Of a stretch of DNA of 64,000 nt, positions 5,110 through 53,959 are shown in pieces. Source of the DNA: Hysterangium stoloniferum. Lineage: Eukaryota > Basidiomycota > Agaricomycetes > Hysterangiales > Hysterangiaceae. Below the pieces are notes generated by a model. That model searched no databases. It was not told the DNA's origin and saw nothing but the letters and a program-made list of their open reading frames with translations. The number at the start of each line of letters is the position of its first letter. Within the stretch, counting starts at the first letter, position 1. The stretch lies in contig WHVD01000029.1 of the NCBI GenBank assembly GCA_015178975.1, positions 186,001 through 250,000 of the forward strand, in the 5' to 3' direction. A program made the translations under genes and the position numbers.

Positions 5110-7085
5110 GGATGGCTCAATTGACAGGTTCAAAGCTCATCTTGTTGCCAAAGGCTATGCACAGCGACCAGGGTTTGATTTCACTAATACCTTTGCTCCT
5201 ACTGCCAAATGGGCCACCTTGCATGCTGTTCTAGCTTTGGCTGCATTAGAGGATATGAAACTTGAGAGTATAGATATTTCTTCTGTGTTCTTAAATGGTG
5301 AACTTGAAGAGGAGGTGTACTTGCAACAACCTTTCACCAAGGTGCTCGTGATGAGTTTTTACTTCTCTTGAAGGGACTTTATGGTTTACATCAATCACCG
5401 TGTATCTGGCACAAGAAGTTGAATGCTGTCTTGCTCAGTTTAGGTTTCAAACAGGTACTATGTGATCATAGTATCTGGGTCTTCCAAAAGGGTGATGTCA
5501 AAGTCATTATACCAGTATTTGTAGATGACATGACTATTGCATCCAAATCCAAGGAGGCTATTAAGAAGCTCAAAGATGATCTAAAGAGTCACTTTAAATT
5601 GCATAATCTTGGTCCAATTACTTACTTATTGGGTGTTGGCATTGAAAGGGACAGGAAGAAGAGAACCATTACTCTATCACAGCAGCAATACATTTTGGAC
5701 ATGTTACAGTGTTATGGTCTTGCTGATTGCAATCCAATTAATACACCTATAGTGCCTAACTTGAAATTAAGTAAAGACCAGGCTCCAGTGTCCCTTGAGG
5801 AGATTGCATATATGAAGGACATTGCATACATCCATGCTGTTGGGTCTCTTATGTACATATTTGGCTGTTGCCACTCATCCAGACATTGTTTACACTGTTG
5901 GTGTATTGGTTAGATTCAATCACAATCCAGGAAAGGCTCATTGGCTAGCAGTAAAACATCTTTTCCACTATCTCAAAGGCACCCTTGACTTGGGTTTGAC
6001 CTATGGCCCTAGTAATGACAAGGAACTATTTGTGTCCTATTTAGATGCTGATCATGGAGGTGATAAATCTACTGGAAAATCTACTGGTGCATATGTGGTT
6101 AAAATGGGTACTGGAGCCATTAGCTAGCAGAGTAAACTGCAAACTATTGTTACACTCTCTACTACTGAAGCAGAGTATATTGCAGCAGTATCAGCAGGTG
6201 CAGAGGTATTATGGTTGTGGAACTTGTTTGAGGAATTGGGATATTCTCAAAAGGCTGCATCCACATTGTACCTTGACAACCAATCTGCTATGGCAATTGC
6301 CAGAGATCCTGAACACCATGGTCAAATGAAGCATCTTGATTTGAGGACATATTGGTTAAGACAGGAAGTTGATAGTGGGAAGATTAAAGTAGTTCATCTA
6401 CCTACTTCAGAGATGCCTGCAGATTTATTAACCAAACCATTGGCTAAGCCAAAGGTGGAATATTTGAGAAAACTATTGGGACTAGCATAGAGCTGTCTCA
6501 TCAGGTAGGAGTGTTAGAGTATGATGCTACATGTCTAACATAGTCTATTATGATCTCCATATTTTTCTGATATTTGTAGTATTTTTTCCAGCACTGTAGG
6601 TGCAGTATTGAGGGAGTTACCTTAGGTCGATACCTGCTGTATACATATGTAGGTGGTTAGATAAGCACCTAGTAGTAGAGTCCACTGTGGGTGTGAGAAA
6701 GTCTCCTTAGTGTTTACTTTCCAATCACACTCACAGGGGTGTTCTACAAAGGGTTATCCAACTGTTTCAACAAGATATGTGTAGAGATGAAGGTGTAGAG
6801 GTGAAGGCGGAGATGAGGAAACAAGTGTGGATAGTGCTAGATGCGCAGGCGGAGAAAGGATAAGGTCACAAAGAGGAAGGTGATGAAAGCACAAAGGGAA
6901 ACTAAGCAGGGCCACACTGCTATAAGTATGTCATGGAATGTTTGAACTGTGACTGGTATGCTACTGTGACTGACAACATTATGTCATAGCAATATAGTGG
7001 CTCCGGGTTCTAGCCCGCTGTACCTAAATCTATGTGAATGTATTTACTCTCTCTCAGAGCCTCTGGGAGCTAGTGCCTATCCTCT
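5110..7085 (+). mobile_element. Ty1/copia LTR retrotransposon fossil
   Basis: Residues characteristic of copia pol are visible: a reverse transcriptase region (ALAALEDMKLESIDISSVFLN-type start, KGLYGLHQSP, the catalytic FVDDM box) followed by RNase H motifs (LDADHGGD, a STTEAEYIA-type stretch, DLLTKPLAKPK). Together they cover about 5110-6490. A TGTTAGAGTATG start at about 6511 after a short purine-rich stretch fits the 3' LTR. The upstream gag, protease and integrase parts are missing or replaced by an LTR fragment. The element is broken, with several interruptions, and looks old. It is not functional as it stands. Confidence 0.85.
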
Positions 7086-7130: not shown

Positions 7131-7408
7131 AGTAATTATTAAAAATAGTATGAGTTGACTCTATTGCAATACACAATATACAAGGGTTTAATAAGCTTGT
7201 AATAAAAGTACTTTGTGTCTCAATATCTTGTGTCAGTGAGTGTAGCACCTCCTGACAATATAGGTTGGATGCTCTGGGAGGTGTATAGTGGTTCTGACAC
7301 ACATTAACCTCCAAATGCATGGTCCACAATTAGCATCTTCATATGAAAAGTTGCAATAATTGGTGGACTCCCCCTATAAAAAGGTGTGTTTCATCATCAA
7401 ATTTAACA
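7131..7408 (-). repeat. LTR-like dispersed repeat, copy B
   Basis: The reverse complement starts near a TTGATGATGAAACACACC stretch and carries the TTGTGGACCATGCAT block and the terminal ACTCATACTATTTTTAATA seen in copies at 20.0 and 33.35 kb. It interrupts the end of the copia LTR region. A ~43-base sequence with core GAGCCTCTGGGAG lies on both sides (7048-7090 and 7509-7552). Confidence 0.55.
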
Positions 7409-19951: not shown

Positions 19952-20023
19952 GTAAGCAAATTTTATGTCGAGTCTTCTGTTTTTCTTTCAAGATGAGGTG
20001 ACTTCCAATTATTAAAAATAGTA

Positions 20024-20297
20024 TGTTGGAATTGGTGATGATGAAACCACCCTTTTCTTAGGGGCGGTTCACCTATTTCTTCACCTTTTCATAGGAGGAT
20101 GCTAATTGTGGACCATATTTTTGGAGGTTAATGCATGCCAGAACCAGTGTACACCTAAACTAGCATCCTACCTACTATGTCAGAAGGTGATTCACTAACT
20201 GACACATTGATTGAGACATAAATACTTATATTACAAGACTATTACCACCTTGTTGATTGTGTATTACAATAAGTCAACTCATAATATTTTTAATAAT
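20024..20297 (+). repeat. LTR-like dispersed repeat, copy C
   Basis: Runs from TGTTGGAATTGGTGATG to a terminal CTCATAATATTTTTAATAAT. It is close to the reverse complement of 33350-33593, and both appear near full length. An ATTATTAAAAATAGTATG stretch also sits just before the start, so the copy is bracketed by inverted AT-rich ends. LTR or MITE cannot be decided here. Confidence 0.55.
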
Positions 20298-26400: not shown

Positions 26401-26507
26401 AATTTTGTTGGGATTTATGAATGAGGACCCAAAAGTGCACAGAGTTGACTTGGAACTGTATCTGGTTACAAAATGCATGGTGAGTAATTTACACATAGAT
26501 ATGTATA

Positions 26508-28105
26508 CAGTAAGCAAGAAAAGGGTTGCAATGTTCAGTAAATTTCAACTCAAATGCTTATAACTCTAGAAATAAATTAGCTAAAATTAGGGAAAAATAT
26601 AAGTTAGAAAGCTCTGTTTCTGAACTTTAACATGATAACCAAGTTTGTTCAAAAATATTCACTCATTGTTGAGAGATTAAATATTTTATACAGGAGTATC
26701 ATTGCAACCCTTTTTTTGCTTTCATTCTGTAGATGAAAGGGCAGGTTGTACTGGTGTTTCTGATCCATTGTTAGGTTGTATTTGATTGTGTGATCATGTG
26801 ACATGTTCAAAACATTCAACATATGACAAACAGACCACAACAGTCTTGTTGATTCCAACATGCAGCCTCTTTCTACTTCTAAATGCAAACACATCCTCTC
26901 CTTCTTGGATTCTGGTCATTCTGCCCACCAGATCTCATCATCCACTGGTCTACACATTAGTATCATCTCTAGACTTTGCAGAAAACACCATCCTTCCCTG
27001 CAGAAGCCTACTGGTGAACATCCTTCCAAGCTTTGTGAGGCTGATAGTCACTATGCCCAGTATCTCATCACCTCAGGGAAGGCTGAAAATGCCTCTCAGA
27101 TCACCCAGATCCTTCAGAACACTATCAACCAGTCTCTCACATCCCAGACAACTTGGAACCACCTGAAGTTAGCTGGTATGAAAGCTGTGGTAAAGGCCAA
27201 GAAGCCCCTTCTTACCAAGAGGCATAGGAAGGAGAGGATGGATTTTGCTCTGGCTCATTTGGATTGGACTATAGAGGACTGGAAGACTGTTGTATGGTCT
27301 GATGAGACCAAAATAAATAGGCTGGGTCAGATGGGAAGAGGTGCTTGGAAGAAGTCTGAGTGATAGGCTTGTGAAGGAGACTGTAAAGTTTGGGGGTGGA
27401 TCTCTGATGATGTGGGGCTGCATGCTGTGGGAGGGAGTTGGGTATGCATGCAAGATTGATGGGAGGATGGGATGGAGAGTTATACACCAAGATTCTGCAA
27501 GATGAACTCCAGGAAAGCCTTGCCTTCTATGGCAAGAATCCCTCCACTATCATCTTCCAGCAGGATAATGATCCCAAGCACAAGTCCAAGAAAGCTACAA
27601 CTTGGTTTGAAGATCATGGATATAAGGTCCTTCCTTGGCCAGCACAGTCCCCTGACCTCAATCCTATTGAACATCTCTGGGATCATCTGAAAAAGAAGCT
27701 GGGAGAGCATGAGAGGGCCCCAGGAGGGATATTGGAGCTGTGGGAGAGGGTACAAGTAAAGTGGGATAAAATAATGCCAGAGGTGTGCCAGAATTTAATT
27801 GAAAGTATGCCTAGGAGGGTTGCAGCAGTGGTCAAGGCTAAAGGAGGTCATACCAGGTACTAGAATGCATAGCTTTATGTTTATAAAATGAAAGCAAAAA
27901 AAGGGTTGCAATGATACTCCTGTACAAAATATTTAATATCTCAACAATGAGTGGGTATTTTTGAACAAACTTGGTTATCATGTTAAAGTTCAGAAACAGG
28001 GCTTTCTAACTTATATTTTTCCCTAATTTTAGCTAATTTATTTCTAGAGTTATAAGCATTCGAGTTGAAATTTACTGAACATTGCAACCCTTTTTTTGCT
28101 TACTG
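26508..28105 (+). mobile_element. Tc1/mariner element with long inverted repeats
   Basis: A 1598-base element with TA on both sides (26506-26507 and 28106-28107). Inverted repeats of about 220 bases (to about 26730 and from about 27885) begin CAGTAAGCAA. Each long repeat itself starts and ends with a copy of GCAAAAAAAGGGTTGCAAT in opposite orientation, so four copies of this short motif sit in the element, two per end. The interior carries the transposase below. The two ends are still close in sequence, which points to a fairly young insertion. Confidence 0.9.
26860..27863 (+). pseudogene. Tc1-type (DD34E) transposase, frameshifted
   Basis: The N-terminal part has a helix-turn-helix (KCKHILSFLDSGHSAHQISS, IISRLCRKHH) and a second paired-like domain, then VVWSDETKI with the first catalytic Asp. 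The C-terminal part has FQQDNDPKH (second Asp) and LNPIEHLWD (Glu), with exactly 34 residues between the second Asp and the Glu. The frame is lost near 27350 (after AWKKS) and again near 27470 (after GRM). The middle segment (LSDRLVKETVKFGGGSLMMW) is clear in another frame. About 330 residues if whole, the usual Tc1 size. In this state no full enzyme is made. Confidence 0.88.
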
Positions 28106-28189
28106 TATATATCAGAAACTAATGTCTCACCATTGCCTCACCATGACACGTGTGTCACATCAAATGGATAACACTCACACATAACAATC

Positions 28190-28847: not shown

Positions 28848-28904
28848 TAACAGAGAAGCATGAACTGCCCTAGGGAGGTGGGTGTTTTATCACCATTTCC
28901 AACA
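28848..28904 (-). repeat. LTR-like dispersed repeat, copy D (5' end only)
   Basis: The reverse complement begins TGTTGGAAATGGTGATAAAA and matches copy A (1142) for about 55 bases. The rest is missing. Confidence 0.5.
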
Positions 28905-29525
28905 AATGTATCGGCTATGGTTGGTTGATGAGGAAAGGGTGAATATATTATAAGAAGACTTGAGCAGATCCACATTGGTCATGGGGGGGCACGGTGATCG
29001 GGTGGTTCTGTATTGACCTATACTTCGAGTCTCTCTCTATCGGTTGTGGGTCTCCTTTTTAGCTTTGACCGGGCGTCCTTGTGTGGTTGAGGATATGGCT
29101 TCAGTGTAGGAAACTTCGACCAAGGGTACTATTATTACCCAATTACTTTGTGGCAAGGCATGTAAACGGATGTATGACGGCAGGTTCATTCGTATATACT
29201 GATGCAGCCCCAAGTCCCCCACCATTTCCCAATATTAAGTTCGGCAATTGCAGAAACGGAGTGCTGTGAAGCTGTGAAAGACGCTGAGAAGCAATTACAT
29301 GCTTACTTGAGCCGTCGGAGCATATTAACTTGAATGAAAAATAGCATTGACTATTACTATATGATAGCCTGTAACAATTACATCCCAAATCAGAACAAGC
29401 CAAATCCGTCAAGGATTGCCTTTTTACATCGAGTCGTAGGACTACAAATTTCACCAAAAATGTGTAACAAACCCCCAATATAAGGACAAGGAGAAGTACA
29501 TGAAATAAAAGGAGGGAATAATGCC

Positions 29526-31006: not shown

Positions 31007-32897
31007 TATGTGACTGGTAAAAATGGAAGATCAATCAAATCGACAGTCCTCTTTCCGGTCCTCTTAAATAGTTGTTGGATTACTGTGCTTAAGACGGAGA
31101 GCACCTACATTTCTACACGTATGATCAGGATTTTTTTTTTTCAGGGCGCTGCTGTTTTGCCAAGTTCTAGACTACATGCATAGGAAAATGGACAGGTGAG
31201 CAAAGGTGCGCATGACATCGATCGTGTCAAGGGATAAAGACACCAATAAACCGAGACATCGAGAAGACAAGCACGGAGTTGTGCCTGCCTTGCGTATGTG
31301 ACTGATTCACAAACCGAAACCGCCATGGCCTCCTGAAAGAAAAAATCAGGGAAAACTCCCAATCTGTGTCTCCATGACAGTGAAAGAGCATTTCTGACTT
31401 GAGAAAGGCATCCGTTCTGCACGACTTCAGCAGCAGCAACAGCGGTATTACTACGAAACACATTTTGTCAATTTTAAATTTTATCAATAGATATATATTA
31501 TAGGGTAGATACGGGTATCTGAATTTCGTGGATGGCAGTCAGATGAGGTCATTTTAGTGTTTGCCGCCGGTTTCCAAGTTATAAGACATTCCTAGAATCT
31601 TCTTCCCCAAAGACTTCTACGTCGAGTCATTTGGGAATGTGTAAAGTTCGGCGTGTCTTGAAAGTTGTCACCAGCGTTGTAATGAACCTAAATTAATCGC
31701 TTGAAATTTTTAAATTCTTTCAGAAGAAATAATCCGATTTCCTGGATATAGCTTCTTCGGGAACGATGCGTGGGAATGGTTGAAAACTTTGGCTCCGCGA
31801 AAATGCAGTTCGATTGCCTTTTTTTTTTTTCCCTTCCGCTTTTCCGCCCTTTCCCGTACTATCTTTTTGCTTCTTTTTATTATTATCCGAAACGGTAAAA
31901 CTTTGAATGATCAATATTATCTAACTTTTGAACCCCTCGCTCACATTTGCTAACAATTAGGAACTCGCTTTAAGTCGGAATGACAACTCAATCGTAAAAT
32001 AGCTCTCCACCCACTGCACGAAAGATGTCTTACGCGGGCTAATTTAATATAATACAGTGAATCAGATCATGCGAGACTCGAACTTTTTGATAAACGGTCC
32101 ACTGCTGGATTGGTCGTTCATAACCTGTGATGTAGTACCTAAGTGCCTTCTACGTAATCTGCTCTTTGTATTCTGAAAATATCACTGGCAGAGCTTGCTA
32201 AAGCCATATCAATCATATCAATCGTCCGGAAGTTGGGCAGCATGAATGCTACGATGTTTTCAAAAAAAATCATCAGCAAGGATGCATCAAAACATTATGT
32301 GTGGCGAAGTTGAGTATGGAATATATTATAGACAAACACTGACATCTCATCCCAAGGCAAATGCGACCCATAGTACAGTAAATGAAACCAAGACAGTAAT
32401 GCTTTAACTCTTTATGTATGCCACTCAATTGAGGTTGAAATACCACATGCAGAGATGGGATTGAACTGGAACATGTACTGGATTCTTCATGGAGTGTAGA
32501 AACAACGCTGTCTCATTCAGTAAGGCACACAACCACTTTGCACGCTATTTCGTAGACTGCAAGTTCATCGCGGATTCGCAGGCAAGGAGCCAGTAATAAT
32601 ATAATCACTACACTTCATGGGCGGACACCAACATCCCACATTATGTACAACAACAGCTTTAAGTCCTGCCATTTTTAAGTTGAAAGGTACCTAGAAAATA
32701 AATTAAACCACACACTGAGTCGACCACCTTTATTAGAGCATTATCTCTGTGGGAATTCCGAAGTTATATCTACTTTTGAACTGTGATCGTGTCTCTCAGG
32801 GCGTGTTCACAACCTGCCACTGCAGTTTATAAATCAAGACAATCCCGGGCTTACCAATGCAATGGTCAGATTAACCGTGATCACTGTGAAAAGGGAA
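31007..32897. other. Promoter side of chitinase 3 and gene-poor DNA
   Basis: The first ~320 bases resemble the promoter side of chitinase 2. The rest holds homopolymer runs and no recognisable gene. The lysine-rich frame at 31720-31914 is a low-complexity by-product. Confidence 0.4.
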
Positions 32898-32936
32898 CTG
32901 ACTGTTAGTTTGAGTAATGCTAGCAGTGCTTCCCAG

Positions 32937-33008
32937 GGTCAGGTGGTGTAATGGTTAACACCCCTGCTATATATGCAGAAGCCCTGGGTTCAATCCCCAG
33001 TCTGGCCA
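32937..33008 (+). ncRNA. tRNA-like cloverleaf inside the 5' LTR
   Basis: The 72 bases fold by eye into a cloverleaf: 7-bp acceptor stem (GGTCAGG with TCTGGCC, two G-U pairs), D arm GTGT/ACAC, anticodon arm CCTGC/GCAGA with one mismatch and loop TATATAT, T arm CTGGG/CCCAG around TTCAATC, then discriminator A. The Pol III A box (TGGTGTAATGG) and B box (GGTTCAATCCC) are near consensus, and a TTTT terminator follows at 33023-33026. Position 33 is A instead of the near-universal U, so it may not decode. Confidence 0.8.
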
Positions 33009-33219
33009 TTCATTATCTACACTTTTAACAGGTTATGGGCCCCGCTGTGTGCTATAGGGCATGGTTCCTGTGTGTAGAGTGAACAGCTATATTTGTGTGT
33101 GGTATAGTGGACAAGTCTGGACAAAAGAGCCAGAGAGGACCTATATCTGCTTATAGTATAGTTGAGTGCTAGCATTAAGGGAGTGTGTTAGTTTGAGTAA
33201 TGCTAGCAGTGCTTCCCAG

Positions 33220-33291
33220 GGTCAGGTGGTGTAATGGTTAACACCCCTGCTATATATGCAGAAGCCCTGGGTTCAATCCCCAGTCTGGCCA
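33220..33291 (+). ncRNA. tRNA-like cloverleaf inside the 3' LTR
   Basis: Identical to the unit at 32937-33008, with the same A and B boxes and TTTT at 33306-33309. Its position in the 3' LTR means a Pol III transcript would start near the end of the element. Confidence 0.8.
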
Positions 33292-33349
33292 TTCATTATC
33301 TACACTTTTAACACTGACTGGAGATTTGGGGCTAACTCGGGGGTGTGGT

Positions 33350-33593
33350 GAATTATATTAAAAATAGTATGAGTTGACTTATTGTAATAAAAGTGCTTGT
33401 GTGTCAATCAATGTGTCAGTTAGTGAATCACCTTCTGACATGATAGGTTTGGTGCTAGTTTAGGTGTACACTGGTTCTGTCATGCATTAGCCTCAGAATG
33501 CATGGTCCACAATTAGCATCTTCATATGAAAAAGTGAAGAAATGGGTGAACCGCCCAAAGGAAAAAGGGTGTTTTCATCACCAATTCCAACAA
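33350..33593 (-). repeat. LTR-like dispersed repeat, copy E
   Basis: The reverse complement runs TGTTGGAATTGGTGATG to TCATACTATTTTTAATA and is the closest relative of copy C (20024-20297). It starts 32 bases after the miniature LTR element's target duplication. Confidence 0.55.
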
Positions 33594-33599
33594 ATTATA

Positions 33600-34720
33600 C
33601 ACCTGTTGACTGTGGTGGGCTCAATGCAACATTGGTTGATTGACTGGAGATACCCGGAAGATGAAATGCATTCTTCCTGAAAAAAATAATAGAGATTGTC
33701 GAGTGGTCGCCACATAAATACCTGCATCCAATGCTGCCTGACATTGACTGTGCCACAAAGCCGATTCCGATCACTACTTTCTAACATTTGTCTTCAAAAT
33801 TATTTTGACTGTCATTTCTGCAAACATAAATTGTTGCGGGATAAACTCAGTGCGATTAAAGCATCCTTTGAGTCGTGGATACAACCCTACGTCCAACAGT
33901 CTAATACCTCACATCTTGCTGAATTGAGCATAGCAGATCGAATGGATAGAATTTATGTCATTCTCATATCCTGATTTTTGGGATTTTCTGCCAGTAGATG
34001 CATGGAGGTCAAATTCAGGGTTTTAGTAAACTTTCTTCACGAGATTTTTTGATATAAAGCATAGAGTACCATTTGTGAGAGCAAAAAGTGTAATGGTTGA
34101 GATGGGTACTTATTATTTTTAATACACTCACATCCATAGGATCCTAAATTATAGTAGTATGAGCAATGCACACATACTGGAAATATGTGGCTGAGATTTA
34201 TGGAATCCATGTAGATCCCACATGACATCCATGGTGGTCAAAAGTGGTTTATACCCTATAGGCTCATTCTGAATTCAGTTGGGCATATAATCCAGTGATG
34301 AGTTTCATCAATTCCAGTTGAATTCTTTTTTTTTACAGGAAACTCTGGGTTGATGTGACTCCCAATCACACCTGTTGTGTCTTCCTTCCTACCACCACCA
34401 TCATCATGTCCAGGTTGCATCCAGGGCTCTGAAAAAAAAAACCCCACTTCTTTACTCACCTTCTACTACTAGCAGCAGATTGTCTGATTGAGAATCAAAG
34501 TGATTTATTGCTGTAGATCTCTATATAACTTTGGAGTAATATATGTTTTCTTAGAGCTTTGTGGATTAATCTGTAGTGAGAAACTGGTCACTTCAAATGA
34601 AGATACATATCCAAATAAGTTTCCCTGTAGTTCAGGTGGGCAAATATATGTGGATGGGATGGTGAGACTGATGACTGTTGGCATGGGGAGGGCTGCCCAC
34701 CCAGTTCTGGTACTCCTCTT
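33600..34720. other. Unassigned DNA
   Basis: No gene recognised. Open frames of 60-96 codons lack family features. Confidence 0.3.
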
Positions 34721-34723
34721 TAA

Positions 34724-35533
34724 TGTCAAGCTTGCATACATGGAGGGTTTCCAGAGAAACCTGCAGGAAAGCTGGTAGGAATTGGCTTCAGCTTATAGGC
34801 TGCACCCTTGCAAGATCATCTTGTCCAATTTCAAACAGGTGGACAGGAATCCTGGGGAGTCTGGGTGGGGGTTCATGGGTTGAGAGGTCGGGGAGTCGAG
34901 ATAGATAGGTGAGAGGTCGAGTGATAGATGGGTTGGAGCCCATGGGCTCCAACAAGTAAGAGCAGTGTGTTTCAAAGAGAAGATTAGAGTGGAAAATATA
35001 CTAAGATTACTGGGGAGAATCTAAGCTGATTTTTTGACTGGATTGTATGTACAACGTCTGCCAGACTATATAGACTGTGGAATGAATAACATACCAAATC
35101 CAGTAATGATGAAAACTAAACTAGTAAACATAAAATGAGATAAATAAACACCAAACTTGGTGTTAGGAACAGAATGGAGCAAAGTGGAGTCCAAATCGTG
35201 ACAAGTCATAAAACCATAATGGGAATGGGGCGGGAGTGGAGTCCAAATCATGACAGGTCATTTGACTATAATGGGAATGGGGCTCAGCTAGAGGGCTGAT
35301 GGGTTTTCCGAGTGGGGTCCGGTGACTGATGTGTGGGACAGGGTTGGAGATAGACAGGGTTGGAGTCCAGCAGGTATTCCAGTGACTGATACATGAAGTA
35401 ACGAGGGTCAAGCATGGACAGGTCTGATGTACAGAGTCCGGCAGGAATTCTGGTAAACTGATAATTGGTGCATGTAGGGTGTGGGTGCATATATGTTAGT
35501 GCCCAAAGTCCAGCAGGATTTCTGGTCATAACA
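34724..35533 (+). repeat. LTR, forward copy of an inverted LTR pair
   Basis: 810 bases from TGTCAAGC to GTCATAACA. It matches the reverse complement of 35602-36409 over its whole length. It carries the GGCTTCAGCTTATAGGCTGC motif shared by several LTRs of the region and a palindromic GGAGCCCATGGGCTCC. No coding region is attached. Confidence 0.75.
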
Positions 35534-35601
35534 TTTAATATCAGTTCATATTGCTTCATTTTACAACCTTTTTAACATTTATCAATACCATCTGGACTCC
35601 C

Positions 35602-36409
35602 TGTTACAACTGGAATTCCCACTGGACTCCGGGCACTAACTTATATGCACCCACACCCTATACGCACCAATTGTCAGTTTACCAGAATTCCCACTGGACT
35701 CCATACATCAGACCTGTCCATGTTCAACCTCCGTTACTTCATGTATCAGTCACTGGAATACCCACCAGACTCCGTCCCTGTCTATCTCCATCCCCATCCC
35801 ACGCATCAGTCACCAGACCCTGCTTGGAAAACCCATCAGCCCTGTAACTGAGCCCTGTTCCTGTTATAGTCAAATGACCTGTCACAATTCAGACTCCACT
35901 CCTGCTCCATTCCTGTTATGGTTTTATGACCTGTCACAATTTGGACTCTGCTCCATTCCATCCCGTTCCTAACACCAAGTTTGGTGTTTATTTATCTCGT
36001 TTTATGTTTGTTAGTTTCATTTTCATTATTACTGGATTTGGTATGTTATTCATTCCACAGTCTATATAGTCTGGCAGATGTTGTACATACAATCCAGTCC
36101 GAAAATCAGCTTAGATTCTCCCCAGTAATCTTAGTATATTTTCTGCTCTAAATTCCTCTTTGAAACACACCACTCTTACTCGTCAGAGCCCATGGGCTCT
36201 GACGCATCTATCACTCGACCTCCGACTCATCTATCTCAACTCCCTGACCTCTCAACCCATGACCCCTGCCCAGACTCCCCAGGATTCCTGTCCACCCATT
36301 TGAAATTGGACAAGACGATCTCATGAGGGTGCAGCCTATAAGCTGAAGCCAAGTCCTACCAGCTTTCCTGCAGGTTTCTCCAGAAACCCTCCATGTACAC
36401 ACCTTAACA
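35602..36409 (-). repeat. LTR, reverse copy of an inverted LTR pair
   Basis: 808 bases. The reverse complement runs TGTTAAGG to GTTGTAACA. Its 3' end faces that of the forward copy across a 68-base spacer (35534-35601), so the two form a near-palindrome of about 1.69 kb. They differ at many scattered bases, so the pair is not a fresh duplication. Confidence 0.75.
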
Positions 36410-42456: not shown

Positions 42457-42640
42457 AGGGTTGGTAGCTCAGTGGTAGAGCATCCAGTCAAGATTATAGA
42501 CGGTCCCAGGTTCAATTCCTGGTGTGTGACCTTAGGAGTTGACGAGGCTTCCTCACTGAGTGCTGTAATGAGGTGGATGTTTGCCTAGCTGACGCTAGGA
42601 GGGAGGGATATTTTCTAGTATTTTTATGGAGGATCCAAAC
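42457..42640 (+). repeat. tRNA-derived SINE-like sequence
   Basis: GGTTGGTAGCTCAGTGGTAG (A box) and GGTTCAATTCC (B box) sit 46 bases apart with a good T arm (CCAGG/CCTGG), but the acceptor and anticodon arms pair poorly, so I do not call a working tRNA. A non-tRNA body follows. Confidence 0.45.
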
Positions 42641-45532: not shown

Positions 45533-47179
45533 TCATTTTCCAATCGCCTTCATCTGGGCAGGGGGATACCTATGGATATTTGATGAGGGATAAGTATTGC
45601 ATAGTATATTCGTACTCATACCTATCACCCTTGATATCTGCCTTATCAACCACCTCTCTAATTTCCTGAAGTTCTTTGGTAGTAAGATGCACGTCGCTGG
45701 ATTTCCAGTTCTCATCAAGACGTGCAATAGACGTAGTCCCTAGTAAATACTAGTCTCACTAAAAGAAGGTTATCTCATCATGTAGCAAATGTTACCTGGA
45801 ATAGGGATAATGTCCTCCCCCTGTGCTGAGACCCACGCAAGCGCAAGCTGTGCGGGCGTAATGCCTTTCTCCTCAGCAATAGCCTGCAACTTCTGCACGA
45901 TCTATGCATGTAAAATTAGGCCCCGATAGTACATTGCATCAAAGATTAGACGGTGCTCACGTTGAAGTTGTTCTGCCAATTTTCCTCTGCAAACCGAGGG
46001 TGCTGTAGCCTCCTATCACTTGGGTCAAAGTCTGCGACGGACTTATATCTCCCAGTGAGGAAACCGCGACCGAGGGGACTATAGGCCACTATCGTGATTC
46101 CCAGTTCTCTTGCGGCGGCGAGTAAACCGTCTGTCATTGCGTGAGTCGATGACTTGAGATTGTAATGTGATCATACTTCGCTCAATGTCTGTAGTCCATG
46201 GGGAATATTCAATTTGAAGGGCGGATATCTTTGCAACCTGTCATCAATGATAACAATGTGGCTTGTGTTTTTGTTAGGTGCGCAAGGTACCTTCGCTGCC
46301 TTTCTCAGAGATTCTTCACTGGGCTCTGAGATGCCGATATATGTGAATTTTCCTTCCCGGCGAAGCTCTTCGAGTGTTGAGTACGTCTCCTCGATGGGAC
46401 TAACCATAATTCTTAGAAAGGAGTATACTTTCATAGCGTCACACGTACACTTTAGGATCAACGCGATGTTGGTAGTATAGATCAGGCGTGAAACCCAGCC
46501 TGGCAATTGATTCATCGATGGACTGTCGAATGTAAGCTGCATCGCCTAAATGGACATGGTTTTTAAATAACTACCATCATAATTCTACTGGGGGTATCGA
46601 TAACGCACCTCTCACCGTGCCGGTAGGCTTTCCTGTCTCCCTGTCGAAGACATTACCGAACTTTGTGCAGAGGAAGACTTTCGAGCGATTGTCATTTTCT
46701 TTCAGCACAGAGCCTGGGGAGTTAAGCCATGGTTATCCAGTGGTAAGTAAATATTGCCTGGTTCCTCACCAATAAGGGTTTCACTGTGGGTCGGAATTGT
46801 GAATCAGCATAATCCAACGAAATATTTACGTCCACTCACTTGTGACCACATCCATAAATATCGGCACTGGTTTGATAATTAGATAAGATATAGGTACAGA
46901 AATTGAAATGAACGTGCGTGTCCCAAAGTGTGACGCCGATCTCAATAGCATGCCTCAGTACGTTTCTGCTCTCCTCGTCGGTAGTCTTGCCATAGATACT
47001 ACTCATCCCCTTTCGATAGCATTATATCAAAGCACCGATAGTTAACGAATAGAATAAATTTACCATTCCACCAAATCCTGGGGTGAGGTTTAATTCCTTA
47101 TACAAATATCTGCTATTTAGGAGAGTCACTTGCCTGGAGAGGGAACCAAACGATCTCCTAATTTGCGTTCTGACGACAT
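45533..47179 (-). CDS. Aldo/keto reductase 1
   Basis: The frame is intact across about ten exons, from MSSERKLGDRLVPSPGFGGM to YPPAQMKAIGK, roughly 335 residues, the usual AKR size. The catalytic tetrad is visible: Asp and Tyr in DTADIYGCG, Lys in FLCTKFG and His in YYQHRVDP. The cofactor side has [21 protein letters not shown]-dependent reduction of a carbonyl is the family reaction. The substrate is unknown. Two 14-base exons are needed (47064-47077, GFGGM; 46770-46783, ETLI). At least two introns start with GC. It lies in a tandem pair with the next gene, about 2.3 kb apart, with 3' flanks copied as well. Confidence 0.88.
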
Positions 47180-47869
47180 GCTGGTAGTAGGTAAAGAGGT
47201 CTTCCTGTACATAATCACGTGGGGTCATGTAATTCTTGCAATATCGTAATTGATGTCTTTTAATTGGGCAGAAGCTATGGGAAACACTACCAAAAAAAAA
47301 AAAAGAAGAAATTCGTCAATGGGATGACGTAACTGATGTCCATGCTCTATAATTAACCTGCTGTGTACACACGAAAAAAAAAATATCAACCCAAAGTACC
47401 TTTGAAATGTGAGTCTCGAAATGAAAGAACATTTTGTTGTACATAATGGATTCCATCACCAGGGCCATAATTTTCTCTCACATTTTTTCGAAGTCAGAAA
47501 TATTAATCCCGGTTGCTTATCGGCTGCTCCCCCCAGGGACAAATACTATCAAGCGGACCATGGAAATTTCGTCTCAAGATGAATATTATAACAAACCATC
47601 TTGAGCGTTCCTGAAGGTTCTATGAAGTGCTTTCAGAGATTTTGCATAAGCTGGAGTCTATGGCTATCACCGGGTGTGATGCTGTTGACCCAACTAACGG
47701 CTTATCTCGCCCTCGTTAGATACAAATGCGACGCATCCGCTTGTCGGGGAGTCGCGTATGTTCCTGCCCCAACATGAGAAGAATACTGACTTCGCTGTGT
47801 GTTATATGTGAAGCAATTTTTTCCTTGATAAGTGTTTACTGATAGTTTGTTTTCAACAATAGTTAAGTT

Positions 47870-49519
47870 TCATTTTCCAACATTCTTCATGTGGACAGGG
47901 GGATACCTATGGGGTTTTTTATGAGATACAAGTATTTGAATGGTGTATTAATGTGCTTGCCTATCACCCTTGATATTTGCCTTGTCAATTACCTCCCGAA
48001 TCTCTCGAAGTTCTGCGATGGTGAGATGCACGTCGCGGGATTTCCAGTTCTCATCAAGACGGGCAATGGATTTAGTACCTGAGAAATATCAATCTCAATA
48101 AAAGAAGAGTTAGCTAATTATGGAGCAAATTATACCAGGGATAGGGATAATGTCCTCCCCTTGTGCTGAGACCCACGCAAGTGCGAGCTGAGCGGGCGTA
48201 ATGCCTTTCCTCGCAGCAATAGCTTGCAGCTTTTCAACGATCTATGCACGTATATTTAGATTACAAGGGCACATCACACTAAACAAAAAGAGAGTACTCA
48301 CTTTAAAATTGTTCTGCCAATGTTTCTCTGCAAACCGTGGGTCCTGTAACCTCTTATCACTTAGCTCGAAGTCTGCGACGGACTTATATCTCCCAGTCAG
48401 GAAACCGCGACCGAGGGGACTATAGGCGACTATCGTGATTCCCAGTTCTCTTGCGGTGGCGAGTAAACCGTCTATCATTGCGTGAGTCGATGACTTGAGA
48501 TTGTAATGTGCTCATACTTCGCTCAATGTCTGTAGTCCATGGGGAATATTCAATTTGAAGGGCGGATATCTTTGCAACCTGTCATTAATGATAATAATGT
48601 GGCTTGTGTTGTTATTAGGTGCGCAAGGTACCTTCGCTGCCTTTCTCAGAGATTCCTCACTGGGCTCTGAGATGCCAATATATTTGAATTTTCCTTCCCG
48701 GCGAAGCTCTTCGAGTGTCGAGTACGTCTCCTCGATGGGACTACCCATACTTCTTATGAGGAAGTATACTCCCACAGCGTGACACGTACACTTTAGGATC
48801 AACGCGATGTTGATAATACAGATCAGGCGTGAAACCCAGCCTGGCGATTGATTCATCGATGGACTGTCGAATGTAAGCTGCATCGCCTAAAGGACATCTT
48901 TATTTAATAGTTATCTTCACGACTCTTCCACATGCGAATAATGCACCTCTCACCGTACCGGTCACGGTGGGTTTTCCTGTCTCCCTATCGAAGTCATGTC
49001 CGAACTTTGTGCAGAGGAAGACCTTCGAGCGATTGTCATCTTCTTTCAGCACAGAGCCTGGGGAATCAATCCATGGTTATCCAGTAGTAGGAAGGTTGTG
49101 ATTTATTCCTCACCGATAAGGGTTTCGCTGTGGTCGGAAAGTCGCCAATCGGTATAATCCAGGGAGATACATATAACTCACTTGTGACCATATCCATAAG
49201 CATCGGCACTGGCCTGATAATGAGATAACATAGCTGTAAACGATTGAAATAAACGTACGTGTCCCAAAATGTGACGCCGATCTCAATAGCATGCCTCAGT
49301 ACGTTTCTGCTTTCCTCATCAGTGGTCTTGCCATAAACGGCGCCACTCATCCCCTTCCGACAATACGATATCAAATTGTCATTAGATTTCTAATACAATA
49401 GACCTACCGACGCTCCAAATCCTGGGGCAAGTATTAATTTCTCAGATAAATGGTTGCTATTTGAATCACTTGCCTGGGCAGGGAACCAGGTGATCTCCCA
49501 ACTTGCGTTCTGGCGACAT
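47870..49519 (-). CDS. Aldo/keto reductase 2
   Basis: Tandem paralogue of the upstream AKR with the same exon pattern, including 14-base exons at 49408-49421 and 49114-49127. From [20 protein letters not shown] to [11 protein letters not shown]. Tetrad: DTADAYGYG (Asp, Tyr), CTKFG (Lys), YYQHRVDP (His), all present. It differs from copy 1 by a three-residue longer PTVTGTVRG loop and scattered changes. The FGAS in place of FGGM at the end of the first short exon removes a conserved Gly-Met. Cytosolic NADPH-dependent reductase by family. No break seen. Confidence 0.88.
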
Positions 49520-49722
49520 GCTGGCAGCAGGAAAAGAGGTCTTCCTGTACATGATCACGTGGAATCATGTAATTATTGAAACAGTCATAATCGATCTCTT
49601 TTAATTGGGCAGAAGCTGTGGGAAATACTACCGAAAAAAAAGAAAGGAAGTTCGTCAAAATGTGAGTGTTTTGATTCAGAGGATTGAAATAAAAGCATAT
49701 GTACTAGCTATAATGATATCAA

Positions 49723-51359
49723 TTACAATGCCATATTTTCCCTAATATCTCTTTCAAAGTCAGCAACGTTAACTACGGTGCCTTCTCTCCTGCTCTTTTC
49801 AGCGGCAAAAACCACCAAGTGAGCACGAAGAACATCCTCTACAGAGGTTCCTGGCCCAAGAAGCTCCTTATTATCTTGTTTCACAGCGTTCACAAATGAG
49901 CGTATCAATCCCATATCCCCTCCACCATGATGACCGCCTTGATCTTCGGGCGGAGGAGAATGACTGCTTTTAACGCGTTTACGGAAATCATTGGTTGTGA
50001 ACGTGACCATATCACCGATGAGCTCTCCGTTGCTGAAATGAATTCTGGTTTGTCTGTCGCATATAGCTGTGGAGGAATACAGAAAAGACGTTAACATTCA
50101 GTATTTATCAACGGACCTTCAGTGAAAGCAACCATGGTAAAAGATGCAGTCGATCCGTCAGAAAATTCTATGTTCACAACCTATGGTAGCGTACGTATGA
50201 ATTAAATTGATATCCAAGTTAAAACATAGTGCCTGACCTGATGGTCGACAACATCATTGGGACTCTCATAAACACAATTGCCATAAGGACCTTCTTGCAG
50301 TGCCTTTGTGATATTTTCAATGTCTGGAGGTCCATCCGTGATGACACTCGCAGGCCAACCTAGTTTTCCCTGCGAGACGGGCTCAATATAAACTACAATG
50401 CAGCGTGTCAATCGTCTCCAATAGAACATGGGTGTTTACACGGACTTTTCTTTGCACTATAGGCACATTCCCGCTCGTATGGACATTCTAGACACTTGGT
50501 TGCAGTTCCAGCTTCCGCAGGCTTGGATGATTTACGGAAATGAGACAGTGAACCGAATGACGAGACTCTGACAGGAGTAGCCGGATAGAAATAATGGCAT
50601 AATATGTCAATATCGCTGGAAAGCCATAGTTAGTACTGTGATTTACTGTCAACAAATCACAATGACTGACTGGCAGCTCTTCGTGAGAAGAGAGAATGAG
50701 CTTGTGGCCTCGCGTGACCAGTTTCCTCGTACATACGAATGAGCGAAATGGAAATATCCGACAGGTTCAACATGCACTATGTTAATCGCTTTCCCTAATT
50801 CGTTGGAGCGAATGACATCAACAATAGCCTTGTTATAAGGTGAATAACGAAGAACTGCCGAAAGCATTCAAAGGAAGTTACCGGGAAAGGGATGCGCATT
50901 ACATACCATATCCTATAGCAAATACAATGTTTCCTGCTTCCTTGATAGAACTGGCCATGCTGATGCAATCCTCTGCACTGGTGGCTAGAGGTTTCTCGCA
51001 GAGCATATGATATCCAAGGGGAGCACAAGCTACAACAACGTCCTTGTGTTGACTGTCCTGGACGGCTACTATGACCGCATCTGCCAGACGTCCAGCTGCG
51101 ACGAGGTCTTTCCAATCCGTAAAAACATTTGAAGTAGGAATTTGGTAAGTCGAAGCGAATATGGTTCGTGTACGTGTTCGGGGCTCTGCTACTGCTACAA
51201 CTTTGCAAAGAGAGGGGTTCTTCAAGGCAAATGAGGCGTACGTCTAAGATCCAAGATGTTCGATTCCCAATGGTTAGTTATCTCAACCAAATGTTTCGCT
51301 ACTTAGCTGCATACCTTTCCACGACTCCCAGCACCAATAATTGCGACCGTAACCGGCAT
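49723..51359 (-). CDS. Gfo/Idh/MocA-family oxidoreductase 1
   Basis: Seven exons from MPVTVAIIGAGSRGK to DFERDIRENMAL, about 425 residues. The N-terminal Rossmann fold has GAGSRG, then VVAVAEPR. The family signature CEKPLAT carries the Lys-Pro that contacts NAD(P). After the second domain comes a Cys-rich insert CLECPYERECAYSAKK, which could hold a metal or a disulphide and is known in some MocA relatives. GPYGNCVYESPNDVVDHQVV and GGGDMGLI follow. Such enzymes oxidise or reduce sugars and similar alcohols. The substrate is unknown. It is in tandem with a near copy downstream. The start is the ATG before the Rossmann strand, with CACGTGTA 59 bases upstream. Confidence 0.88.
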
Positions 51360-52319
51360 ATTTGAGTAGGTAACGTAATGACCTCTCAATCTAGGTATCA
51401 TTTATATGCAATTGAAACACGTGTACATTCTCGTCACGGTACCTGCATCGGAGTCATTGTTTTAGAGTCGCAGGGCCGTAGCACCCATTCCCGAAATCGG
51501 ACAAGATAAGATGATATTCAGGGACGCACGAGCTATTAATGTCTCCCACTCCGGGACATATGATTCCGGGTCGTGATTCGGTTCTATTTTTAAAAGTATT
51601 TGGTTGATCGTGCGTCCCATTTTGGTGATAAGTACGTATTCATAGCCTTCCTAAACTATTCTTCTATTCTGTTACACAGTCCGGTCTAAAGCGGAAGCCG
51701 GCTGCGACCACAGGTGACAGACAGGCATCATGGCAGCAGGCGCGGACCGCTACATGAGACTAGCTACCGTACAAAGAAATTAAATGACTGTAGCAAATGT
51801 GAAAGTGGGATGGTGGGTAGGAAATAAAAAGAATTTTCACAGATGCTGCAAGCATCCTGTGAGATGGGACATGAAGGAACAAAGACAGAGAGAAGGGAAA
51901 AGGCACCTGTGAACAATAATGGGATCACACAAAAGTGACATTGAGGAGACACGCAGGAGCTTTCGGTAAGAGGTATACTGAGTCTGCGGTCAATTTCGGG
52001 ATCATCACTACCCCCACTTTTTATGGAGGGTGACTTTAGCAACCGAGCCTCACGTCATTATTCAAAGAGCCGATGATTCAAAGCAACTTTGCTTTCGTCT
52101 GGAATGCGGGTTTGAACTTCACACACAAGGCTGCCTTCGGCGGTCTGACGTCAAACACCGTTCTTCTTTGGACGCATACTCTTCCTCTTGGGTGTACCAT
52201 AGCTTCGGAACCCTCCAGAACCCGTTTCTTCCTGATCAAAGTGTGCCGGTGTGTGAATGTGAGTGTTTTGATTCAGAGGATTGAAATAAAAGCAAATGTA
52301 CTATCTATAATGATATCCA
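51360..52319. other. Upstream region of MocA copy 1 and 3' flank of copy 2
   Basis: The block from about 52253 (GTGAGTGTTTTGATTCAGAGG) also occurs at 49655, marking the end of the duplicated unit of about 2.6 kb. Between 51.6 and 52.25 kb no gene is recognised. A minus-strand TPKRKSMRPKKNGV followed by a stop (about 52150-52195) looks like the tail of a lost gene. Confidence 0.4.
51418..51425. promoter_or_regulatory. CACGTG site, MocA 1 promoter
   Basis: CACGTGTA starts 59 bases upstream of the ATG. The same site lies at the same distance before MocA 2 and the truncated third copy. CACGTG is a bHLH-type site. The binding factor is unknown. Confidence 0.5.
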
Positions 52320-53959
52320 TTACAATGTCATATTTTCCCTAATATCTTTTTCAAAATCGGAAACGTTAACTACGGTCCCTTCTCTCCTGCTCTTTTCAGC
52401 GGCAAAAACCACCAAGTGAGCACGAAGAACATCCTCTACAGACGCTCCTGGCCCAAGAAGCTCCTTATTACCTTGTTTCACAGCGTTCACAAATGAGCGC
52501 ATCAATCCCATATCCCCCCCACCGTGATAACCGCCTTGATCTTCAGACAGAGGGGAATGACTGCTCTTAACACGTTTACGGAAATCATTGGTTGTGAACG
52601 TGACCATATCACCGATGAGCTCTCCGTTGCTGAAATGAATCCTGGTTTGTCTCTTGCATATAGCTGTGGGGGAATGCAGAGAAGACGTTAACCATTATTT
52701 AACAACGGACCTTCAGTGAAAGCAACCATGGTAAAAGATGCAGTCGATCCATCCGAAAATTCTATGTTCACAACCTACGGCAGCGTATGTATAAATTAGA
52801 AAAGACATCCAAGTTAGAATATAGTGCTTGACCTGATGATCGACAACATCATTGGGACTCTCATAAACACACTGACCATAAGGACCTTCTTGCAGTGCCT
52901 TTGTGATATTTTCAATGTCTGGAGGTCCATCCGTGATGACACTCGCAGGCCAACCTAGTTTTCCCTGCGAGACGGGTTCAATATAAGCTATATTGTAGCG
53001 TGTCAATTGTCTCGAATAGAATATGGGTGTTCACACGGACTTTTTTTTGCGCTGAAAGTACATTCCGGCTCATATGGGCATTCTAGACACTTAGTTGCAG
53101 TTCCGGCTTCCGCAGGCTTGGATGATTTACGGAAATGAGATAGTGAACCGAATGACGAGACTCTGACAGGAGTAGCCGGATAGAAATAATGGCATAATAT
53201 ATCAATATCGCTGGAAAGTCATAGTTAGTACTATTATTTACTGTCAACAAATCACAATGACTGACTGGCAGCTCTTCGTGAGAAGAGAGAATGAACTTGT
53301 GGCCTCGCGTGACCAGTTTCCTCGTACAAACGAATGAGCGAAATGGAAATATCCGACAGGTTCAACATGCACTATGTTAATCGCCTTCCCTAATTCGCTG
53401 GAGCGAATGACATCAACAATAGCCTTGTTATAAGGTGAATATCGTAGGACTTCCGAAAGGATTCAGGAAGGAAGTTGCGAGAGAAGAGATGTACATTACA
53501 TACCATGTCCTATAGCGAATACAATGTTTCCTGCTTCCTTGATAGACCTGGCCATGCTGATGCAGTCCTCTGCACTGGTGGCTAGAGGTTTCTCACAGAG
53601 GATATGATATCCAAGGTGAGCACAAGCTACAACAACGTCCTTGTGTTGACTGTCCTGGACGGCTATTATGACAGCATCTGCCAGACGTCCAGTTGCGATG
53701 AGGTCTTTCCAGTCCGTAAACACATTTGAAGTAGGAACTTGGTAAGTCGAAGCGAATATGGTTCGTGTACGTGTTCGGGGCTCTGCTACTGCTACGACTT
53801 TGCAGAGAGAGGGATTCTTCAGGGCAAATGAGGCGTATGTCTGAGATCGAGGTACGATTTCCAATCTTCAGTTTCAATCAAATATTTTGCTACTTAGCTG
53901 CATACCTTTCCACGGTTCCCAGCACCAATAATTGCGATCGTAACGGGCACAACTGACAT
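52320..53959 (-). CDS. Gfo/Idh/MocA-family oxidoreductase 2
   Basis: Near copy of the previous gene, with the same seven-exon pattern and intact frame from MSVVPVTIAIIGAGNRGK to DFEKDIRENMTL. It has GAGNRG in the Rossmann loop, CEKPLAT, the Cys-rich CLECPYEPECTFSAKK and GGGDMGLM. Differences are scattered and mostly conservative. At the extreme N-terminus it has two extra residues. It is divergent from the FAD monooxygenase, with about 410 bases between the start codons, so the two may share a promoter region. NAD(P)-dependent oxidoreductase of unknown substrate. Confidence 0.88.

Follow-up and report, generated by a model that had tools for sequence, protein, structure and literature searches.

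A 411-bp element at positions 32903–33313 of the 64-kb stretch of DNA analysed here (the window) is interpreted as a Helenus-type TRIM (TRIMp3), that is, a non-autonomous LTR retrotransposon that would be transcribed by Pol III and moved in trans by an element of the Copia superfamily. A probability of about 0.82 is assigned to this reading. Its parts are held with different confidence: the element very probably belongs to the Helenus kind, an assignment that follows the published feature description, and Pol III is, by a more modest degree of belief, the probable main polymerase of the element. The identity of the element is supported by two identical LTRs that run from TG to CA and each contain a tRNA-like unit with its A and B boxes, by a 5-bp duplication and by a predicted primer site for initiator-methionine tRNA (tRNA-iMet).

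Kojima (2024, Biology 13:119, PMC10886601) gave the name 'Helenus' to miniature LTR elements with tRNA-like LTRs, which that paper reports from fungi, animals and plants; TRIMp3 is the name proposed there for those TRIMs that carry a Pol III promoter. In the same account, 113 Helenus families are from Pucciniales and some are from three Agaricomycetes. Furthermore, the Pol III function of Helenus is described as not validated and the conclusion as one that needs experiments, and PMC10886601 leaves open the question of Pol III as maker of LTR-element genome RNA. A clean, apparently recent insertion of the Helenus kind is a handy test object for LTR-element genomes made by Pol III.

Structure of the element

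The element has the order LTR–interior–LTR (Table 1) and is present as a single copy in the window. A repeat search of positions 32500–33700 returned one direct-repeat family, consisting of two 128-nt members whose starts lie 283 nt apart. This search and a script recheck both found the LTRs identical at 128 of 128 bases, in agreement with the earlier note, which had been made from the sequence alone. Because all 128 bases are identical, the insertion appears to be recent. Both LTRs run from TG to CA. With two LTRs, a total length below 1000 bp and no coding capacity, the element has the dimensions of a TRIM, and the absence of genes claimed previously is borne out by the lack of any stop-to-stop frame of at least 90 aa inside it.

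The claimed 5-base target duplication can be read directly from the sequence as CTGAC on either side of the element. If the ends may lie anywhere within 120 nt, 153 of 2000 random places yield TG..CA termini plus a 5-bp match; once the repeat fixes them, the chance of a 5-base flank match is ~1/1024. The duplication counts as evidence because the LTR repeat fixes the ends of the element.

The position of the duplication also bears on a competing explanation, which the earlier note had singled out for checking: that the two repeats are separate insertions of one 128-bp tRNA-headed SINE, in the same orientation and 155 bp apart. A tRNA head that includes the A and B boxes is indeed present in each repeat. 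However, CTGAC brackets the pair, and a scan of each 128-base unit in the window, covering duplications of the 5-bp type, found none with TG/CA ends around either LTR alone, which argues against two SINE insertions. Furthermore, no tail is visible by eye, and a predicted 12-base initiator-tRNA primer site adjoins the first copy. Given the duplication pattern and the primer site, two SINE insertions are regarded as highly improbable. The miniature LTR element with tRNA-like units that had been proposed is instead supported, both by the covariance model discussed below and by the duplication around the LTR pair.

The interior lacks a run of four Ts, which is unremarkable at a length of 155 nt. 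Its first 15 bases would presumably pair with the anticodon stem-loop of initiator-Met tRNA, 14 of them fitting the human tRNA and 13 the yeast tRNA. The 12-base stretch GGTTATGGGCCC directly abuts the 5′ LTR and has no second exact match on either strand of the window; with up to two mismatches, three matches are present in the window against 4.0 expected by chance. By its sequence, GGTTATGGGCCC would suit priming by a truncated tRNA, as in those Copia-type elements that are primed in this way. The earlier note had placed a primer site at this position, and its probable fit to tRNA-iMet is an addition of the present analysis. The purine tract claimed alongside it was recovered in part: AAGGGAG lies 2 nt from the 3′ LTR, but the tract is weak and no clear one is present.

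Table 1. Coordinates of the features of the element and its target site within the window.
Feature	Position	Strand	Basis or remarks
Target-site duplication CTGAC, left copy	32898..32902	.	Read from sequence
5′ LTR	32903..33030	+	128 bp, TGTTAG...TAACA; 100% identical to 3′ LTR
tRNA-like unit of 5′ LTR, anticodon TAT	32937..33008	+	ARAGORN; RF00005, 46.8 bits
A box TGGTGTAATGG	32944..32954	+	Match to consensus
B box GTTCAATCC	32988..32996	+	Match to consensus
TTTT in 5′ LTR, possible weak Pol III terminator	33023..33026	+	Sequence scan
Interior	33031..33185	+	155 bp; no coding frame of at least 90 aa; no run of four Ts
Predicted primer-binding site GGTTATGGGCCC, truncated tRNA-iMet (anticodon stem-loop)	33031..33042	+	Complementarity to tRNA-iMet
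Candidate polypurine tract AAGGGAG, weak	33177..33183	+	Sequence scan; TG between tract and 3′ LTR
3′ LTR	33186..33313	+	128 bp; 100% identical to 5′ LTR
tRNA-like unit of 3′ LTR	33220..33291	+	ARAGORN; RF00005, 46.8 bits
TTTT in 3′ LTR, possible end of genome-length RNA	33306..33309	+	Sequence scan
Target-site duplication CTGAC, right copy	33314..33318	.	Read from sequence

The tRNA-like unit of the LTRs

The complete 72-base cloverleaf that the earlier note had described in both LTRs was called by ARAGORN in each of them. The covariance-model check that accompanied this claim was likewise favourable, with a score of 46.8 bits for either unit (E = 7.4e-07 per unit) in the Rfam tRNA model RF00005, the gathering score of which is 29. 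Standard pairing holds at 20 of the 21 stem positions; the remaining one, outermost in the anticodon stem, is a C–A opposition. Both boxes, A and B, are close to consensus, and the TTTT starts 14 bases past the end of the cloverleaf, both as previously claimed. A script that searched both strands of the window for the two boxes followed by TTTT at a set spacing found this pattern at two places, which are the two LTRs. Rfam found tRNA only, and no 5S rRNA, in the LTRs, so the element lacks the small-RNA gene that characterises Cassandra.

Could the two units be tandem tRNA-Ile(UAU) genes or pseudogenes that arose by local duplication? The two ARAGORN calls and the anticodon TAT would suit such an origin. 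However, the repeat is longer than the tRNA-like part, by 34 nt on the upstream and 22 nt on the downstream side; it also begins with TG and ends with CA, and a 5-bp duplication lies outside the pair. Furthermore, the tRNA-like body agrees with a tRNA-Ile sequence at 43 of 72 positions, compared with 45 of 72 for each of human Gln, Glu and His, the best of the nine tRNAs compared. The extent of the repeat, the outer duplication, the similarity of the body and the folding in context all disfavour functional tRNA-Ile genes, and tandem genes or pseudogenes are given almost no credence. The LTRs of such elements are nevertheless reported as tRNA genes by tRNA gene callers.

A further tRNA-like unit, at 42465–42522 (+), is eroded and scores 28.8 bits, just below the gathering score of 29. 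It retains the D arm with the A box and the T arm with the B box, the anticodon arm is missing, and it may be the head of a SINE or an old relic. Examined as a solo LTR, it gives a single candidate that has both TG..CA ends and a 5-bp match; this is uninformative, because 253 of 1000 random places yield one as well.

Folding of the tRNA-like unit

Compared with shuffled sequences, the 72-nt unit folds with a moderate z of −2.18, and 7 of the 200 shuffles equal or surpass its folding. The corresponding values for the 100-nt and 128-nt stretches are −0.90 and −0.79. The mean pair probability of the cloverleaf is 0.95 in the 72-nt unit alone, 0.42 in a 100-nt transcript, 0.25 in the LTR and, for either copy, 0.24 in a 382-nt RNA. 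Because the fold predicted for the whole LTR differs from the cloverleaf, the modelling leans towards a role for the tRNA-like part as a promoter in DNA rather than as a tRNA-like product. This lean is soft, since the cloverleaf can be imposed at a cost of only 1.5 kcal/mol in 100 nt and 3.2 kcal/mol in 128 nt; the cost is 6.6 to 8.4 kcal/mol in 382 nt. Given the small enforcing cost, the RNA may still adopt a tRNA fold, and a modified or protein-bound RNA could take another fold.

Transcription and proposed life cycle

In Schizosaccharomyces pombe, Pol III termination is ~90% at five Ts and negligible at four Ts, according to the data given in PMC4982682. As four Ts hardly stop this Pol III, read-through of the TTTT in the 5′ LTR into a genome-length RNA is plausible. 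The first run of five Ts downstream of the element is at 33975.

In the proposed cycle, TFIIIC and Pol III would act through the two promoter boxes in the 5′ LTR, and transcription would start ~10–20 nt upstream of the A box. Pol III would pass the weak TTTT of the 5′ LTR, cross the interior and terminate either in the 3′ LTR, at its TTTT, or further downstream. The resulting RNA would be ~380 nt or more in length, with an R region of nearly the whole LTR, a U3 of ~25 nt and a U5 of ~4 nt. A Copia reverse transcriptase would prime from the truncated initiator tRNA, strand transfer would take place within R, and a Copia integrase would produce the 5-bp duplication. In this cycle the tRNA-like part would act as a promoter and not as a tRNA. 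If four Ts do not stop Pol III at the 5′ LTR, those of the 3′ LTR would not do so either; the RNA may then overrun the end of the element, which strand transfer within R should survive.

This particular route is put forward tentatively and is itself rather doubtful: Pol III would make the genome RNA by passing a weak TTTT in the 5′ LTR and then either halting at its 3′ LTR counterpart or running past it, with R as nearly the whole LTR and U5 of ~4 nt. If four Ts suffice to stop the Pol III of the host, most RNAs would be dead-end products of ~95 nt. If the route is correct, the strength of Pol III termination in the host would determine how many short tRNA-like RNAs are made for each transposition-competent one.

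The same Helenus-type TRIM might alternatively owe its genome RNA to Pol II, acting from a cryptic LTR promoter or a neighbouring gene, with the tRNA-like part being a passive SINE relic captured by the LTR or the source of a short Pol III side product. An efficient terminator directly behind the tRNA-like part, where the TTTT lies, would stop Pol III, and the Pol III function of Helenus awaits validation in the account of PMC10886601. Set against this are the retained A and B boxes and standard stem pairs, the weak effect of four Ts on the S. pombe enzyme (PMC4982682) and the composition of the LTR, 72 of whose 128 bp are tRNA-like, which would leave scant space for a Pol II promoter. Transcription of the genome RNA by Pol II is considered unlikely, though far from negligible, and a Pol III-transcribed Helenus element moved by Copia proteins remains the preferred reading.

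Searches for relatives and a mobilising partner

The flanks of the element, joined without it, match no other place in the window across the junction, so no empty site was found there. A 25-base core of the LTR has no exact match in viral contigs or in prokaryotic genome contigs, the latter being expected for a eukaryotic element. Similarly, a pattern of B box plus primer site has no match in viral contigs, and the whole element has none among plasmids. The 17 bases that join the LTR end to the primer site occur in one viral-contig stretch (L001), which was read as a chance match and rejected; it has no LTR pair and no tRNA, and it belongs to a coding-like frame of a contig with 38% G+C.

With regard to the partner, the primer type and the duplication length fit a Copia element, and no partner was found within the 64-kb window. 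A Copia reverse-transcriptase remnant lies at 5308–5910 (+) (RVT_2, E = 7.6e-30), and a search of both strands of the window found no exact copy of GGTTATGGGCCC near it.

Genomic surroundings

A dispersed repeat at 33356–33598 lies just downstream of the element and starts downstream of the insertion junction. Pieces of it match 20018–20295 (−), 7137–7408 (+), 1142–1253 (−) and 28861–28907 (+) at identities of 71–100%, the two longest at 86% and 77%. A large inverted repeat follows at 34737–36397, with 665-nt arms (86%), outer 136-nt arms (91%) and a 68-nt centre. A 44-nt inverted repeat (98%) at 1684–1881 forms a MITE-like hairpin and is the source of matches to miRNA models that fall under their gathering scores.

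Thirty of the 111 stop-to-stop frames of at least 90 aa in the window were scanned against Pfam, with an E-value cut-off of 0.001 for the first 10 and of 0.01 for the remaining 20. Matches were obtained in 6 of the 30 frames: RVT_2, HTH_Tnp_Tc3_2, DDE_3, FAD_binding_3, Aldo_ket_red and Glyco_hydro_18, the last of which is weak and lies under the curated cut-off. Such matches would suit a fungal host but do not prove one. PDB searches of window frames returned flavin monooxygenases for one and no match for another. The frames matching the Tc3-type HTH and DDE_3 are bracketed by 231-nt inverted repeats (96%) at 26501–28112, and from these sequence features the region is classified as a Tc1/mariner-like DNA transposon. 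At 45597–53767, direct repeats ~2.3 and 2.6 kb apart share 78–93% identity, and one unit contains the aldo/keto reductase match; judged by sequence, they are probably tandem gene duplicates.

Comparison with known elements

Drosophila Copia and yeast Ty5 are autonomous, gene-bearing elements with Pol II LTR promoters, unlike the present element. They resemble it in the kind of primer predicted for it, since in both the anticodon region of a tRNA primes reverse transcription (PMC10886601), and for Ty5 the primer is tRNA-iMet, as stated by a title in the reference list of that paper. PbTRIM of the red harvester ant is also miniature and gene-free, with a primer site and a purine tract, but it has 4-bp duplications and a tRNA-Leu primer site, and the excerpted description in PMC3532108 does not mention a tRNA-like LTR.

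Two TRIMs with 5S rRNA sequences are closer in design. Cassandra, from plants, is likewise miniature and has the promoter of a small-RNA gene in each LTR; unlike the present element, it carries 5S rRNA and not tRNA, measures 565–860 bp and is called the only validated TRIMp3 lineage (PMC10886601). Ajax, a nemertean TRIM with partial 5S, shares the architecture, 5-bp duplications and a similar length (421–434 bp), but it is 5S-derived, has a tRNA-Leu primer and is described from two nemerteans only (PMC10886601). The earlier note had recognised the idea of Cassandra realised with a tRNA-like unit, and this kind of element corresponds to Helenus, published in February 2024 (PMC10886601). No further paper on Helenus or TRIMp3 was found among open-licence PMC papers, and in a 2025 paper on rust-fungus transposons (PMC12210899) a term search returned one mention of TRIMs and none of Helenus.

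As characterised in PMC10886601, fungal Helenus elements mostly have anticodon-loop primer sites, with tRNA-iMet dominant, and this primer type links them to the Copia superfamily, as in Drosophila Copia and yeast Ty5. Their length is 311–1263 bp, and duplications are 5 bp in fungal and plant members. The present element agrees with this description (PMC10886601) in that it has no genes, both of its LTRs contain a tRNA-like sequence that includes A and B boxes, a 5-bp duplication flanks it, its length lies within the fungal range and its predicted primer site is of the fungal anticodon-loop, iMet type. It differs in its anticodon TAT, which is absent among the types of Table 2 of that paper, and in its A box, which begins TGGTG, in contrast with the TRGCY of most Helenus elements. 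As PMC10886601 says 'most', the missing TRGCY does not exclude the element from Helenus, and the box motifs YGG and GGTTC are both present. The departures from fungal Helenus are the A box without TRGCY, the weak purine tract and the failure to find a partner in the window, and the element agrees with most of the testable features. It is a further example of a kind of element that has been known since February 2024.
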